Positions 11,757 to 42,712 of a stretch of DNA of 64,000 nucleotides are shown piece after piece. This DNA comes from Marinobacter persicus (lineage in GTDB: Bacteria; Pseudomonadota; Gammaproteobacteria; Pseudomonadales; Oleiphilaceae), in contig NZ_PTIV01000005.1 of NCBI RefSeq assembly GCF_002934325.1, forward strand, positions 1 through 64,000. Reading direction: 5' to 3'. Both the position numbers and the translations under genes were made by a program. Below the pieces are notes generated by a model that did not search any database, was not told the DNA's origin, and was given only the letters and a program-made list of their open reading frames with translations. Numbering within the stretch: the stretch's first letter is position 1; each line of letters opens with the position of its first letter.

Positions 11757-13607
11757 TCAGGGGGCGGTGTTGCCTTCCTTTTCCTCTGTTGTGTCTGGCG
11801 TTTCCGTCAACACGGCCTTGCCATTGCGGAAGCGGGCCCAAAGCTGGTGGCGATGAATGCTGCCGTCCGGTTCCATGGTCAGTGTGCCTGTCAGGCCATC
11901 AATGCTGGCGTCTTCGATCTGACGTAACAGGGGGAGGCGCTTGCTGATCTGCCAGGCATCTGCGCCCATGGCAAAGAGCCGGCCCAGTTGCCCTTGGGTG
12001 TTGCTGAAGTGCTTTGAAGTTTCGCTTCTGAGTGCCAATTCCGGCTCAAGTACCCAGGGGATGTCGGTAAAGTTCACCTGGTTCAGGTCCCTGTCGCGAG
12101 AGGCATTTGGCGTGCCCTCGTAGACGATTGAAGGCGAATAGACAGGCAGGTCTCCGCCATAATAAAACGCAAACAGAGGGTTGAGCTGCCGTGCGATGGT
12201 GGGGGATGCGACCATGACAATGCCTTCTGCGTCCTGTCGCCGCCGGGGCTCGAACTCCACGTCCAGGCCAATGGTACGCTCAACCTCAATGGCGCGGTTA
12301 CGGGAGGTGGTGATGCCCAGCAGGTCGGCAGTGACCGAGCGCAGGTTTTCATCGGGCATGAAACGGACAATGTCCAGTGCGTCTACGTCGAGCTTCGCCA
12401 TACGGTCGAGCAGTGCGGCTTCCACCCGATCACCCCAGTCTCCGTGGGGAATCAGAACCAGCACATGCTGGATCTGTTGATTGGCCAACCGTTCGGCAAT
12501 CTGGCGCGCTTCGTCTTCCGCAGACAGGCCGAATTGGTGGAGTCCATCCGGAATGCGGCTTTTTTCAGGCAAATAATTCAGGCCTAGAACCGGTATGGGC
12601 AGGGTGTTCATCCGGGAGAGCTCGCCCAGGGCCTGTTTGTCCAGCGGGCCTATCACCAGGTCAGCCTGGGAGTTGCTCAGTTCCTGATAAAGTTCCGAAA
12701 AAGACCGACCGCTGGTATCGAGAATGCGGATATCGGTTTTGTCCCGATCTGCGGTGTCGTCGGTATAGTAGGCTGCCAGGAAGCCATCTCGAATTGCCTG
12801 ACCGGCGCTGGCCAGGCGGCCCTCAAACGGCAGGGCCAGTACAATGTTTTCAGGCCGGGTTAAGGCCAGTTCTGCCAGCAGGCGCAGCTCGGTAGGTGGG
12901 ACCTGTGCCGCGGGGTGGCTCGGCCAGTTGTTTTGCCATTGCCGGACCTTGCGGCCCTGAACATCCAGGCTAGCGGCGCGGTCCTGAAGGGTTGTTGCCA
13001 ACTCCAGCCAGCCCTGAATTTCAAAGCCGGTTGCAGTTTTCGTCGCTGCCTGCAGTTCGGTGGTATCCAGATCCTTGAAGTATCCCCAGATCTGGTCGTG
13101 CAACGGTTGAGGCTGGATGCTGCTGTTGAGTTGGCCGAGGAGGATCAACGATTTCGCGGCATCCAGTGGCTGTCCGGCCAGCGCAAAAGTTTGAGACTGC
13201 AGCCGGGCAGCTCGGGCCATGAGTTCATCTGGATAGGCCAGGAAACCCTCCGGTTCAAGCTGTTTGGCAAGATCTGTTGCCCAGCGCTTGTCTTCAAGCG
13301 CGACGGCGCTGGCCATGGCCAGAAGTTGCCACTGCTTTTTCAATTCGGGGGACAGGCTTACCAGTTGGTTGTCACGAAGCAGGGTCCGGGCGTTGGCGTG
13401 ATTTCCCTGGTCCTGGAACCGGTTGGCGGTGCGCAGCAGATAGCTCTGAGCCAAAGTCCGGTTCTCTTCATCCGCTGCCAGCGACAGCGCCTGAGCTGGC
13501 GAGTTGGCCTGGTGGCTTCCCAGGTCGGTCGTTGCACAGCCGCTCAGCACCAGCGATAGCAGGAGCAGCATGGCCGGAATAGTAGGGGGGCAGCTTGGCT
13601 TTTTCAT
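11757..13607 (-). CDS. lpoA: Penicillin-binding protein activator LpoA
   Basis: A 616-residue outer-membrane lipoprotein that activates the peptidoglycan synthase PBP1A from outside. A lipoprotein signal ends in LVLSGC, where the Cys is lipidated. The N-terminal half looks helical and TPR-like. From about residue 250 the chain resembles a periplasmic binding fold (IVLALPFEGRLASAGQAIRDGF, DLVIGPLDKQAL). The start is placed at 13607 (MKKPSC) because it gives the signal peptide directly. The in-frame ATG 99 bases upstream would add a non-signal extension. It is divergent from rsmI. Confidence 0.9.
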   Translation of the reverse strand: MKKPSCPPTIPAMLLLLSLVLSGCATTDLGSHQANSPAQALSLAADEENRTLAQSYLLRTANRFQDQGNHANARTLLRDNQLVSLSPELKKQWQLLAMASAVALEDKRWATDLAKQLEPEGFLAYPDELMARAARLQSQTFALAGQPLDAAKSLILLGQLNSSIQPQPLHDQIWGYFKDLDTTELQAATKTATGFEIQGWLELATTLQDRAASLDVQGRKVRQWQNNWPSHPAAQVPPTELRLLAELALTRPENIVLALPFEGRLASAGQAIRDGFLAAYYTDDTADRDKTDIRILDTSGRSFSELYQELSNSQADLVIGPLDKQALGELSRMNTLPIPVLGLNYLPEKSRIPDGLHQFGLSAEDEARQIAERLANQQIQHVLVLIPHGDWGDRVEAALLDRMAKLDVDALDIVRFMPDENLRSVTADLLGITTSRNRAIEVERTIGLDVEFEPRRRQDAEGIVMVASPTIARQLNPLFAFYYGGDLPVYSPSIVYEGTPNASRDRDLNQVNFTDIPWVLEPELALRSETSKHFSNTQGQLGRLFAMGADAWQISKRLPLLRQIEDASIDGLTGTLTMEPDGSIHRHQLWARFRNGKAVLTETPDTTEEKEGNTAP

Positions 13608-39941: not shown

Positions 39942-40042
39942 TCCTGCGGATCATCCCCATGCCGGGTTAGCCCATGGTAGAATGCCTGGTCCCATTTGTT
40001 AGGGAGCCACCGATCAACTCCCTGGAACCACGAGGAAACACA

Positions 40043-40654
40043 GTGGCCGTTCGTTACATTGAAACCTGCCGTTTGCCCACCCCTTTCGGAGTCTTTGATA
40101 TGCACGGCTTCGAGGAGCCGGAGACCGGCAAGGAGCACGTGGCACTGACGCTGGGTGATATCAGCTCCGGCGAGCCTGTGTTGGCGCGAACCCATTCCGA
40201 ATGCCTGACCGGCGACGCGCTCTACAGCATGCGCTGTGACTGTGGTTATCAGTTGGAGGAGGCTCTGCGCAGCATTGCCCGGGAAGGACGGGGGATTTTG
40301 ATGTACCTGCGCCAGGAAGGTCGTGGTATTGGTCTGTTGAACAAGATCCGCGCCTATCACCTGCAGGACCAGGGCGCCGATACGGTGGAGGCCAACGAGC
40401 GTCTGGGGTTTGCCGCTGACCTGCGCGACTACAGCATGTGCAAGGACATGCTTGACCACCTTGGGGTATCAGCACTGCGTTTGATGACCAACAATCCCAG
40501 GAAAGTCAAAGCGCTGGAATCGTATGGTATTCGCATTGCCGAGCGCATGCCCCTGCATGTGGGGCGCAATCCCCACAATGAAAGCTATCTCAATACCAAG
40601 CAGAGCAAGCTGGGGCACTGGCTGGAGACCCACCAGGACGATGATCCGTTTTAA
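40043..40654 (+). CDS. ribA: GTP cyclohydrolase II
   Basis: A 203-residue enzyme that opens GTP for riboflavin synthesis. It matches E. coli RibA through [16 protein letters not shown], the zinc site [32 protein letters not shown] and [13 protein letters not shown] 40043 is chosen because AGGAA lies just before it and the family N-terminus starts here. No DHBP synthase domain is attached. Confidence 0.95.
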
Positions 40655-40688
40655 ACTCTGACCGGAGGGCACCCTGTGGTCAATGATC

Positions 40689-40794
40689 GCCAGCGGGGGA
40701 GGCCTTTCCGGGAATTTCGAAGGCCAGGGATGGCCTGAGAGAAGCGCACATGGATGTGCTTGTAGCGGTTCCCGGAAAGGCCTCCCCCGCTGGC
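40689..40794. repeat. Nested palindromic element (26-bp perfect inverted repeat with two inner hairpins)
   Basis: The arms 40689-40714 and 40769-40794 are perfect 26-bp inverted copies of one another. The 54 bases between them hold AGGCCA-GGGA-TGGCCT (40721-40736) and GCACA-TGGA-TGTGC (40746-40759), plus a TTCGAA. The whole can fold as a three-way junction in DNA or RNA. It fills the gap between the convergent ribA and dxs, so it may also end both transcripts. I saw no second copy in the window. A dispersed REP-like or MITE-like repeat is an inference. Confidence 0.9.
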
Positions 40795-40807
40795 AGTCCT
40801 CCGCTGT

Positions 40808-42712
40808 CTACAGGCTAGCCAGCCGATCCACAATTGCCTGACCGATACCCTCGGCGTCCAGCCCGCACTCACTGAGCAGTTCCCCGTGCTTGCCGTGATC
40901 GACAAACCGGTCCGGTAACCCAAGCTGGAGCACTGGCACCGTGAGCTGGTTGGCGTTCAGGTATTCGCACACGGCGCTGCCCGCGCCGCCGGCGATGGCG
41001 TTCTCTTCCAGGGTCACCAGCAGATCGTGCTGCTCGGCCAGTTCCCGCACCAGCGCTTCATCCAGGGGTTTTACGAACCGCATGTCCGCCACGGTGGCGT
41101 TCAGGCCGTCGGCCGCTTCCAGGGCAGAATGCAGCAGGGTGCCGAAGTTCAGGATAGCCACCTGTTTGCCGTCGCGGACCCGGCGCCCCTTACCCAACGG
41201 CAGAGCCGTCAGTTCCTGCTGGATTTCCGTGCCCGGGCCGGTGCCTCGCGGATAGCGAACGGCCGCCGGTCCCTGATGATGCAGGCCGGTGTGCAGCAAC
41301 TGACGGGTTTCGTTTTCATCTGACGGGGTCATGACCACCATGCCGGGGATGCAGCGCAGGTAGCTGATGTCGAACGCGCCGGCGTGGGTGGGGCCGTCTT
41401 CGCCCACCAGGCCCGCCCGGTCAATGGCAAACAGTACGTCCAGATCCTGAATGGCCACGTCGTGAATCAGCTGGTCATAGGCGCGCTGCAGGAAGGTGGA
41501 GTAGATCGCCACTACCGGCTTGGCGCCATCGCAGGCGAGACCGGCGGCCAAGGTGACGGCGTGCTGCTCGGCAATGGCCACGTCAAAGTAGCGGTCCGGG
41601 AAGCGTTTAGAGAAGGCCACCAGGTCCGAGCCCTCGCACATGGCCGGGGTGATGCCCACCACCCGGGCATCCTGCTCAGCCGCATCACACAGCCATTGCC
41701 CGAACACGTTGGCGTACTTGGGCCCGGGGCTGGACGGTTTGGCCGGTTCGGACTTGTTGGCCGGCACCGGTTCTATCTTGTTAATGGCATGGTAGCCCAC
41801 CGGGTCTGCCTCGGCCGGCGCAAAGCCCTTGCCCTTGGTGGTGACGACATGCAGGAACTGCGGGCCCTCTAGCTCGCGCAGGTTTTCCAGGGTTTCCACC
41901 AGCAACGGCAGGTCATGGCCATCGATGGGGCCGATGTAGTTGAAGCCCAGTTCCTCGAACAGGGTGCCGGGGGCAATCATGCCCTTGAAGTGTTCTTCGG
42001 TCTTCTTCGCCAGTTGCATCAGCGGTGGCGCGGCTTTCAGCACCTTCTTGCTGCTGTTGCGCATGTGGTTGTAGGTGCGGCTGGCCAGTAGTTTGGCAAA
42101 GTAATTGGACAGCCCGCCCACGTTCTGGGAGATCGACATGTCGTTGTCGTTCAGGATCACCAGCATGTCAGCGTGCAGGTGCCCGGCGTGATTCAGCGCT
42201 TCGAAGGCCATGCCGGCGGTCATGGCGCCATCGCCAATCACCGCAATGCTCTTGCGCCCGGATTTCTGCAGGCGGGCGGCGATGGACATGCCCAGTGCGG
42301 CGCTGATGGAGGTGCTGGAGTGGCCCACGCCGAAGGTATCGTATTCGCTCTCGGCCCGTTTCGGGAAACCAGCCAGTCCGCCCTTGCGACGGATGCTGCC
42401 CATCCGGTCCCGGCGCCCGGTCAGGATCTTGTGGGGATAGGCCTGGTGGCCGACATCCCACAGCAGGCGGTCAAAGGGCGTGTTGAACACATAGTGCAGG
42501 GCCACGGTAAGCTCGAGCACGCCAAGGCCGGCACCAAAATGCCCGCCGGTCTGGCCCACGGACCACAACAGGAAGGCCCGCAGTTCACGGGCAAGGCGCG
42601 GCAGGTCTTCTGCCGGAAGCTCGCGGAGTTGGGCCGGAAGCTCAATCCGGTCCAGCAGCGGAGTGTTGGGCCGCTGTGACGGGATTTCTTTGAATGTGTA
42701 AATGTCCTGCAT
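40808..42712 (-). CDS. dxs: 1-deoxy-D-xylulose-5-phosphate synthase
   Basis: A 634-residue thiamine-diphosphate enzyme that makes DXP from pyruvate and glyceraldehyde 3-phosphate, the first step of the MEP isoprenoid route. It has [12 protein letters not shown], the ThDP motif [15 protein letters not shown], the [16 protein letters not shown] transketolase block and a C-terminal domain. It follows ispA after 76 bases in the xseB-ispA-dxs operon. Confidence 0.97.

Follow-up and report, generated by a model that had tools for sequence, protein, structure and literature searches.

A palindromic element between ribA and dxs

The window, which is the whole stretch of 64,000 nucleotides that we analyzed, hosts a palindromic element in the gap between two convergent genes, a ribA-like and a dxs-like ORF (Table 1). 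The initial annotation had described this element as a perfect 26-bp inverted repeat around two smaller hairpins, and both parts of the description were confirmed: 26 of the 26 arm positions pair, and the two inner hairpins (AGGCCA-GGGA-TGGCCT and GCACA-TGGA-TGTGC, loops between hyphens) are present in the core. RNA folding of the plus strand returns the three-way junction that had been anticipated, at -85.7 kcal/mol (z = -8.4); the minus strand folds at -78.5 kcal/mol (z = -8.6), and none of 200 shuffles folds as stably on either strand. As noted before, no T run adjoins the arms, and the element therefore lacks the GC stem followed by a T run of an intrinsic terminator.

Table 1. Coordinates of the element and its neighbors in the window
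Feature	Coordinates	Strand	Remarks
ribA-like ORF, upstream neighbor	39974..40654	+	Name from the initial annotation and from annotated plasmid-collection records
Segment occupying the gap where M. persicus G049 has 4 nt (CTTG)	~40657..40797	+	About 30 nt of it are 5' flank
Left arm of the outer stem, 26 bp	40689..40714	+	Fully complementary to the right arm
Core, 54 nt, conserved (subfamily TTTCGAAGGCC...GTAGCGG)	40715..40768	+	Alignments of 28 and of 132 copies
Hairpin 1, stem AGGCC/GGCCT, loop AGGGAT at 40726-40731 (ANGGA at 40726-40730)	40721..40736	+	Folding and alignment
Hairpin 2, stem GCAC/GTGC, loop ATGGAT at 40750-40755 (ANGGA at 40750-40754)	40746..40759	+	Folding and alignment
Right arm of the outer stem	40769..40794	+	Pairs with the left arm
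dxs-like ORF, convergent downstream neighbor	40808..42712	-	Name from the initial annotation and from annotated plasmid-collection records

The GGGA loop of the first hairpin had been read as a GNRA-type loop. The hairpin itself stands, but the GNRA label is incidental, the conserved rule being ANGGA. Because N varies and A-GGA hardly does, both loops are better read as hexaloops ANGGAY on a C-G closing pair. In this copy the second ANGGA motif lies 19 nt after the first. The convergent position, which had suggested a boundary between ribA and dxs, is real as a location and says nothing special about the repeat family described below. The same gap has a T-run terminator in six of nine relatives (L042-L045, L047 and L050; 15 gaps were extracted and the nine on the right strand used, with L048 and L052-L056 excluded), and is without one in both the window genome and M. 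persicus G049.

The element belongs to a dispersed repeat family

A BLAST search of the window's own genome with the element returned 43 rows, including the query itself and its two arm echoes. For the genome searches we used a covariance model (R2) built from 28 aligned copies. At E <= 0.001 it gave 81 rows in the window's own genome, corresponding to at least 68 distinct places after removal of opposite-strand echoes (a few of these are partial or weak, and 150 of 1462 first-look candidates were scored). The same model identified at least 108 places in M. persicus IBRC-M 10445 (G049), the nearest relative found as judged by the ribA-dxs region (150 of 1304 first-look candidates scored). Across the genus, up to 38 candidates were scored in each of 100 genomes, and 98 of these contain a match at E <= 1e-6; the other two, G055 and G078, have no match at this threshold. 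Within the order, 65 of the 194 genomes and 38 of the 96 genera sampled match, and the names outside Marinobacter among the matches listed include Haliea, Parahaliea, Pseudohaliea, Microbulbifer, and MAGs labelled Halomonas and Sedimenticola. Plasmid and phage records gave no match to a single query, this element, and viral contigs gave none to the one pattern with which they were searched. Rfam 15 has no gathering-level match on 40600-40900; at a lax threshold there are 12 matches, all below the gathering score and several to long-hairpin families such as microRNAs.

The element almost certainly belongs to a family of non-coding palindromic repeats that are dispersed in Marinobacter and its relatives. 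The many intergenic copies and their covarying stems support the options raised by the initial annotation, a mobile palindromic repeat (REP/MITE-like) or a structured RNA, and dispose of the single genomic copy that it had named as the mark of a chance local duplication. We found no description of such a repeat family among open-licence PubMed Central papers.

The outer stem varies in sequence and keeps its pairing

The arms, about 29 bp long, differ between copies while their pairing persists. Among the 28 aligned copies, 96.4% of the 1114 pair cells are standard pairs and both sides have changed in 32 of the 40 stem pairs; none of 500 shuffles reached any of the five stem measures, and pairing with slid partners did not exceed 52.1%. 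The outermost 11 bp or so of each arm are weakly conserved, G-rich on the left side and still paired, and the inner 11 bp or so are partly conserved.

Inverted repeats were sought with spacers of up to about 150 nt. A larger set of 132 copies was obtained from 179 inverted repeats in stretches of the window's own genome and of M. persicus G049, after leaving out 47 that were truncated, module-bearing, unrelated or not orientable by the rule used. Among these 47 are three family members missed by the simple finder (C9:14548, L201:10315 and L234:9009), which also missed C4:110975. The inner 22 bp of the arms in the 132 copies comprise 2843 Watson-Crick, 38 GU and 14 mismatched pairs, as counted with a detector that favors Watson-Crick arms.

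We also compared the arms at 14 orthologous sites with conserved cores, out of 28 sites occupied in both species. Double substitutions predominate among the changes: in 31 pairs both bases have been replaced to give a different Watson-Crick pair, 14 pairs have changed on one side to GU or Watson-Crick and 6 to a mismatch, 322 are unchanged, 4 are gapped and 1 shows another double change. The scored arms at C2:72328 and C1:80282 are short (13 bp) and reveal little about arm change.

In passages of PMC8794818, loop inversions and multiple compensatory changes are attributed to template switching; in a table of that paper neither single compensatory changes nor a compensatory change combined with a loop inversion rise above the control. 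The repeat resembles the hairpins treated there in its multi-base compensatory changes and its loop inversion. Those passages, however, concern RNA genes (rRNA and microRNAs), whereas ours is a dispersed bacterial repeat with arms of about 29 bp. Template switching may be the cause of arm pairing here, and compensatory selection may contribute.

Presence, absence and core inversion between species

For the comparison with M. persicus G049, which draws on one genome per species, 64 own copies were used. A single alignment spans the element in both species for 28 of them, and for another 15 both flanks could be placed; the remaining ones lie outside the stretches compared or are unaligned. At 10 of the 15 flank-placed sites M. 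persicus G049 has no intact element (two of these, C1:83291 and C12:56729, retain an arm remnant); each of the remaining five holds at least one element, and the one at C4:162734 has an inverted core. The core is inverted within its arms at 5 of the 28 occupied sites, where it aligns better as the reverse complement (0.79-0.98 identity). Further occupied sites have, between species, a core of apparently another subfamily or a different loop module. A copy appears to be nested in M. persicus (L220, ~12560-12670, orthologous to own C5:90712), with one element inside the hairpin-1 region of another.

In the ribA-dxs gap M. persicus G049 reads TTTAAAC-CTTG-CCTCCGCTG, and the window has 141 nt between TTTAAAC and CCTCCGCTG. 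Absence from this gap in a close relative had been put forward as a further mark of chance duplication. The absence is true, but the conclusion is not borne out: it points to a lineage-specific insertion, or to a loss in M. persicus, rather than to a chance duplication. No target duplication is seen at this empty site, the flanks being about 85% identical to those of M. persicus and the limits of the insert varying between sites. We rejected the idea that the arms were copied from the target at ribA-dxs, as the empty site of M. persicus G049 contains neither arm.

Both loops carry a conserved ANGGA motif

The motif ANGGA is found in hairpin 1 of 129 and in hairpin 2 of all 132 copies, with a spacing of 17-20 nt. 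There are three exceptions: one own copy and one copy of M. persicus G049 have lost the loop-1 GGA, and a third copy has lost only the leading A. N is T, G, A or C in 72, 39, 16 and 2 copies in loop 1, and in 47, 69, 12 and 4 copies in loop 2. These counts are partly circular, as the BLAST query and the model used contain GGA loops; the comparison of orthologs is less so. The 30 loops of 15 orthologous cores show no change at any of the 120 A and GGA positions, against 16 changes among the 30 N positions; the last loop base differs in 5 of 30 loops, and elsewhere in the core 22 of 635 positions have changed. This set is made of 15 of the 28 occupied sites, filtered for conserved cores, with flanks 40-99% identical. 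Gene conversion among copies could add to core conservation.

The motif extends to other genera: of 23 oriented copies, all have GGA in hairpin 1 and 22 have it in hairpin 2, and the full ANGGA is present in hairpin 1 of 18 copies and in hairpin 2 of 22. Seven further inverted repeats from these genera were not orientable; at least three of them resemble family members, one with ATGAAT as second loop.

The CsrA SELEX consensus reported in PMC7652899 is RUACARGGAUGU; of 55 ligands, 51 carry GGA within a hairpin loop, and most loops have six nt. A single CsrA dimer can bridge sites 10 to 63 nt apart (PMC4066749). A fixed A-GGA with a free N is the recognition rule of CsrA/RsmA, and the loops are predicted sites: at the level of sequence, the repeat has two or more loop ANGGA motifs within 10-63 nt and keeps A-GGA with N free. 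The string ACANGGAYGT is present in 98 of the 132 copies and the full 12-nt SELEX consensus in 4. In 1.2 Mb of M. persicus G049, in stretches chosen around copies, 64 of the 76 ACANGGAYGT sites fall within such inverted repeats, which account for 1% of the bases. All 28 genomes examined, copy-rich and copy-poor alike, have the CsrA family, so that the presence of CsrA does not explain copy number.

Genomic context and orientation

According to simple ORF calls, 30 of the 132 copies overlap a called ORF and 4 are without a flank, which leaves 98. Convergent gaps hold 36 of these 98 (both genomes), compared to 84 of the 431 gaps that measure 60 bp or more in the M. persicus G049 stretches (P = 4.5e-4, uncorrected for shared loci and pairs; copies that are paired or orthologous do not count as independent). 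Between co-directional genes, copies show no preference for the sense strand (22 versus 18, P = 0.64). A bias in the own-genome tally with cruder gene calls (18 sense versus 7 antisense) vanished in the larger set and was discarded. With no sense bias and with cores that flip at a site, a particular orientation does not seem to be required at any locus.

Close pairs of copies are mostly divergent, that is, with their 5' ends facing (28 of 32; 11 of 12 in the window's own genome and 17 of 20 in M. persicus G049, some loci being shared). Given the flipping cores, this arrangement is either created as the pairs form or kept by selection. Flank motifs are weak (AACTCC upstream; GCACC and then CAGGCTA downstream) and the upstream flanks are weakly conserved. 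Promoter-type strings and GacA-type half-boxes are absent or rare in the 132 upstream flanks (TTGACA in 0, TATAAT in 2, TGTAAG in 0).

Comparison with known repeats and RNAs

The repeat looks like a REP/MITE-type repeat and also like a CsrA-binding RNA, but fails tested features of REPs, MITEs and CsrB/RsmZ. It shares with REPs, BIMEs and REPINs the character of dispersed intergenic palindromes that often form inverted pairs, as the divergent close pairs do here. It differs from them in its length of about 112 bp with a three-way junction and in its outer arms, whose sequence is not conserved. REPs are mobilized by Y1 transposases. Among genomes of which many are draft assemblies, we found no Y1 transposase match in 5 of 16 copy-rich ones and matches in 10 of 12 copy-poor ones. 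A Y1 transposase as mobilizer is thus unsupported, and no mobilizing enzyme was identified; unlike the conserved palindromes of REPs and REPINs, the outer arms are weakly conserved here, and a genomic Y1 transposase does not accompany the repeat in all copy-rich genomes searched. Integron attC sites have conserved ends and a variable middle, the reverse of the pattern seen here, and were set aside on these general features.

Bacterial MITE-like repeats, as covered in PMC2229807, include Correia/NEMIS, ERIC/IRU and YPAL. The likeness to our family lies in their size (about 100-200 bp), their mostly intergenic location and their transcripts with long stem-loops; in addition, the longer form of Correia has an internal sequence of 50 bp that is similar to the loop modules described below. 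Most families listed there have terminal inverted repeats, TA ends and target duplications, whereas the arms of our repeat vary but pair, and are not conserved terminal inverted repeats. With the sponge RNAs CsrB, RsmY and RsmZ the repeat has in common GGA motifs in loops, several sites and a spacing that a dimer can bridge. It departs from them in being dispersed, with two sites per copy, no promoter found and no gathering-level Rfam match.

Proposed role and alternative explanations

Our best reading is a mobile-type palindromic repeat that carries twin putative CsrA sites, a reading that we hold with about even confidence, as we do the CsrA mechanism of the family. Template switching between the arms during replication would copy one arm onto the other, largely accounting for their pairing, and would occasionally invert the core. 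A copy would probably be transcribed within the RNA of a neighboring gene, and its outer stem would hold out the two hairpins as a twin CsrA/RsmA site bridged by one dimer. Together, the copies would then work in trans, forming a sponge or docking reservoir for CsrA that is distributed over the genome. Such a joint role would explain why A-GGA is kept in resident copies whichever way the core faces. Indifference to orientation argues against a locus-by-locus role in cis, and fits a role in trans as well as a selfish element; we favor the functional reading because copies staying in place keep A-GGA while N drifts. More tentatively, the repeat may have been recruited across Marinobacter and related genera as a CsrA/RsmA sponge spread over the genome. 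It would comprise some 70 to 110 copies in the two genomes that were counted, every copy being a twin ANGGA platform on a stem that template switching would keep paired and allow to flip, and the number of copies and their transcription would set how much CsrA is free. If so, a class of dispersed repeats would be a regulatory reservoir, which would be one answer to the purpose of intergenic palindromes, and repeat copy number would be tied to a global regulator.

It is possible, but in our view rather unlikely, that the family is a purely selfish palindromic repeat of the REP/MITE kind, whose hairpins, as single-stranded DNA or RNA, are recognized by a copying enzyme and resemble CsrA sites by coincidence. 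Dispersed copies that are present or absent between species, close pairs that diverge like REP doublets, the nested copy, the loop modules and the lack of sense bias would all be expected of it. The orthologs that stay in place speak against it, since unchanged A-GGA beside a changing N indicates selection with the degeneracy of CsrA recognition. So do the five of 16 copy-rich genomes, mostly drafts, in which Y1 transposases were not found, and the plasmid and phage records in which one query had no match.

The repeat might instead be an RNA element of mRNA 3' ends, its stem protecting or processing them as an RNase III site, an exonuclease block or an attenuator, and its hairpins being structural. 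The enrichment in convergent gaps and the very stable fold of both strands agree with such a role. We regard it as improbable, since a purely structural loop would not fix A-GGA with N free, and the copy between ribA and dxs has no T run.

Even less credible is a family of CsrB/RsmZ-like small RNA genes, in which every copy would have a promoter of its own and divergent pairs would share a promoter region. The GGA hairpins and the facing 5' ends of close pairs suit this idea, as does the RsmZ model RF00166, which exceeds its cut-off in none of 12 Marinobacter genomes (G060 has a weaker match, and no control genome is above the cut-off either); the weakly conserved upstream flanks with their paucity of promoter-type strings, and the cores that flip at a site, leave very little room for it. 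A chance local duplication at ribA-dxs, to which the empty gap of the nearest relative had lent some color, is refuted by the number of genomic places and by the covariation.

Whatever its relation to CsrA, the family offers a natural record of the way in which long stems remain paired. It makes the template-switch model testable, as each genome has many copies, sites are orthologous between species, some cores are inverted and mismatched pairs are few.

Loop modules and other observations

Several copies carry additional sequence in hairpin 2. A hairpin module of about 80 nt takes the place of part of the hairpin-2 loop in copies whose arms and cores differ (L091, L099, L102 and L109 in the window's own genome; L212, L230 and L233 in M. 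persicus G049), and removes the hairpin-2 GGA in the four own copies. Another module, of about 50 nt, lies in hairpin 2 and gives rise to a third GGA hairpin (L068 and L083 in the own genome; L212, L232 and L238 in M. persicus G049). At the orthologous site C19:12205 the two species have different modules.

A mobile-element-like end (TGAACACCTCTTGTTG...) is located at the same hairpin-2 loop base in all five exact occurrences among 124 genus genomes (L380-L384: C3:196136, C6:53-84 and C38:43-74 in G000; C5:5107 and C24:214127 in G020). The host elements have different arms, and all occurrences end soon after, apparently at contig ends. This mobile-element-like end may target the repeat. Finally, we observed a second, unrelated dispersed inverted repeat that is built on CCACGGAATCCACGG-like sequence and is found at L064 ~255-405 (own C3:71754-71904), L223 12889-13103 and L225 16359-16530.
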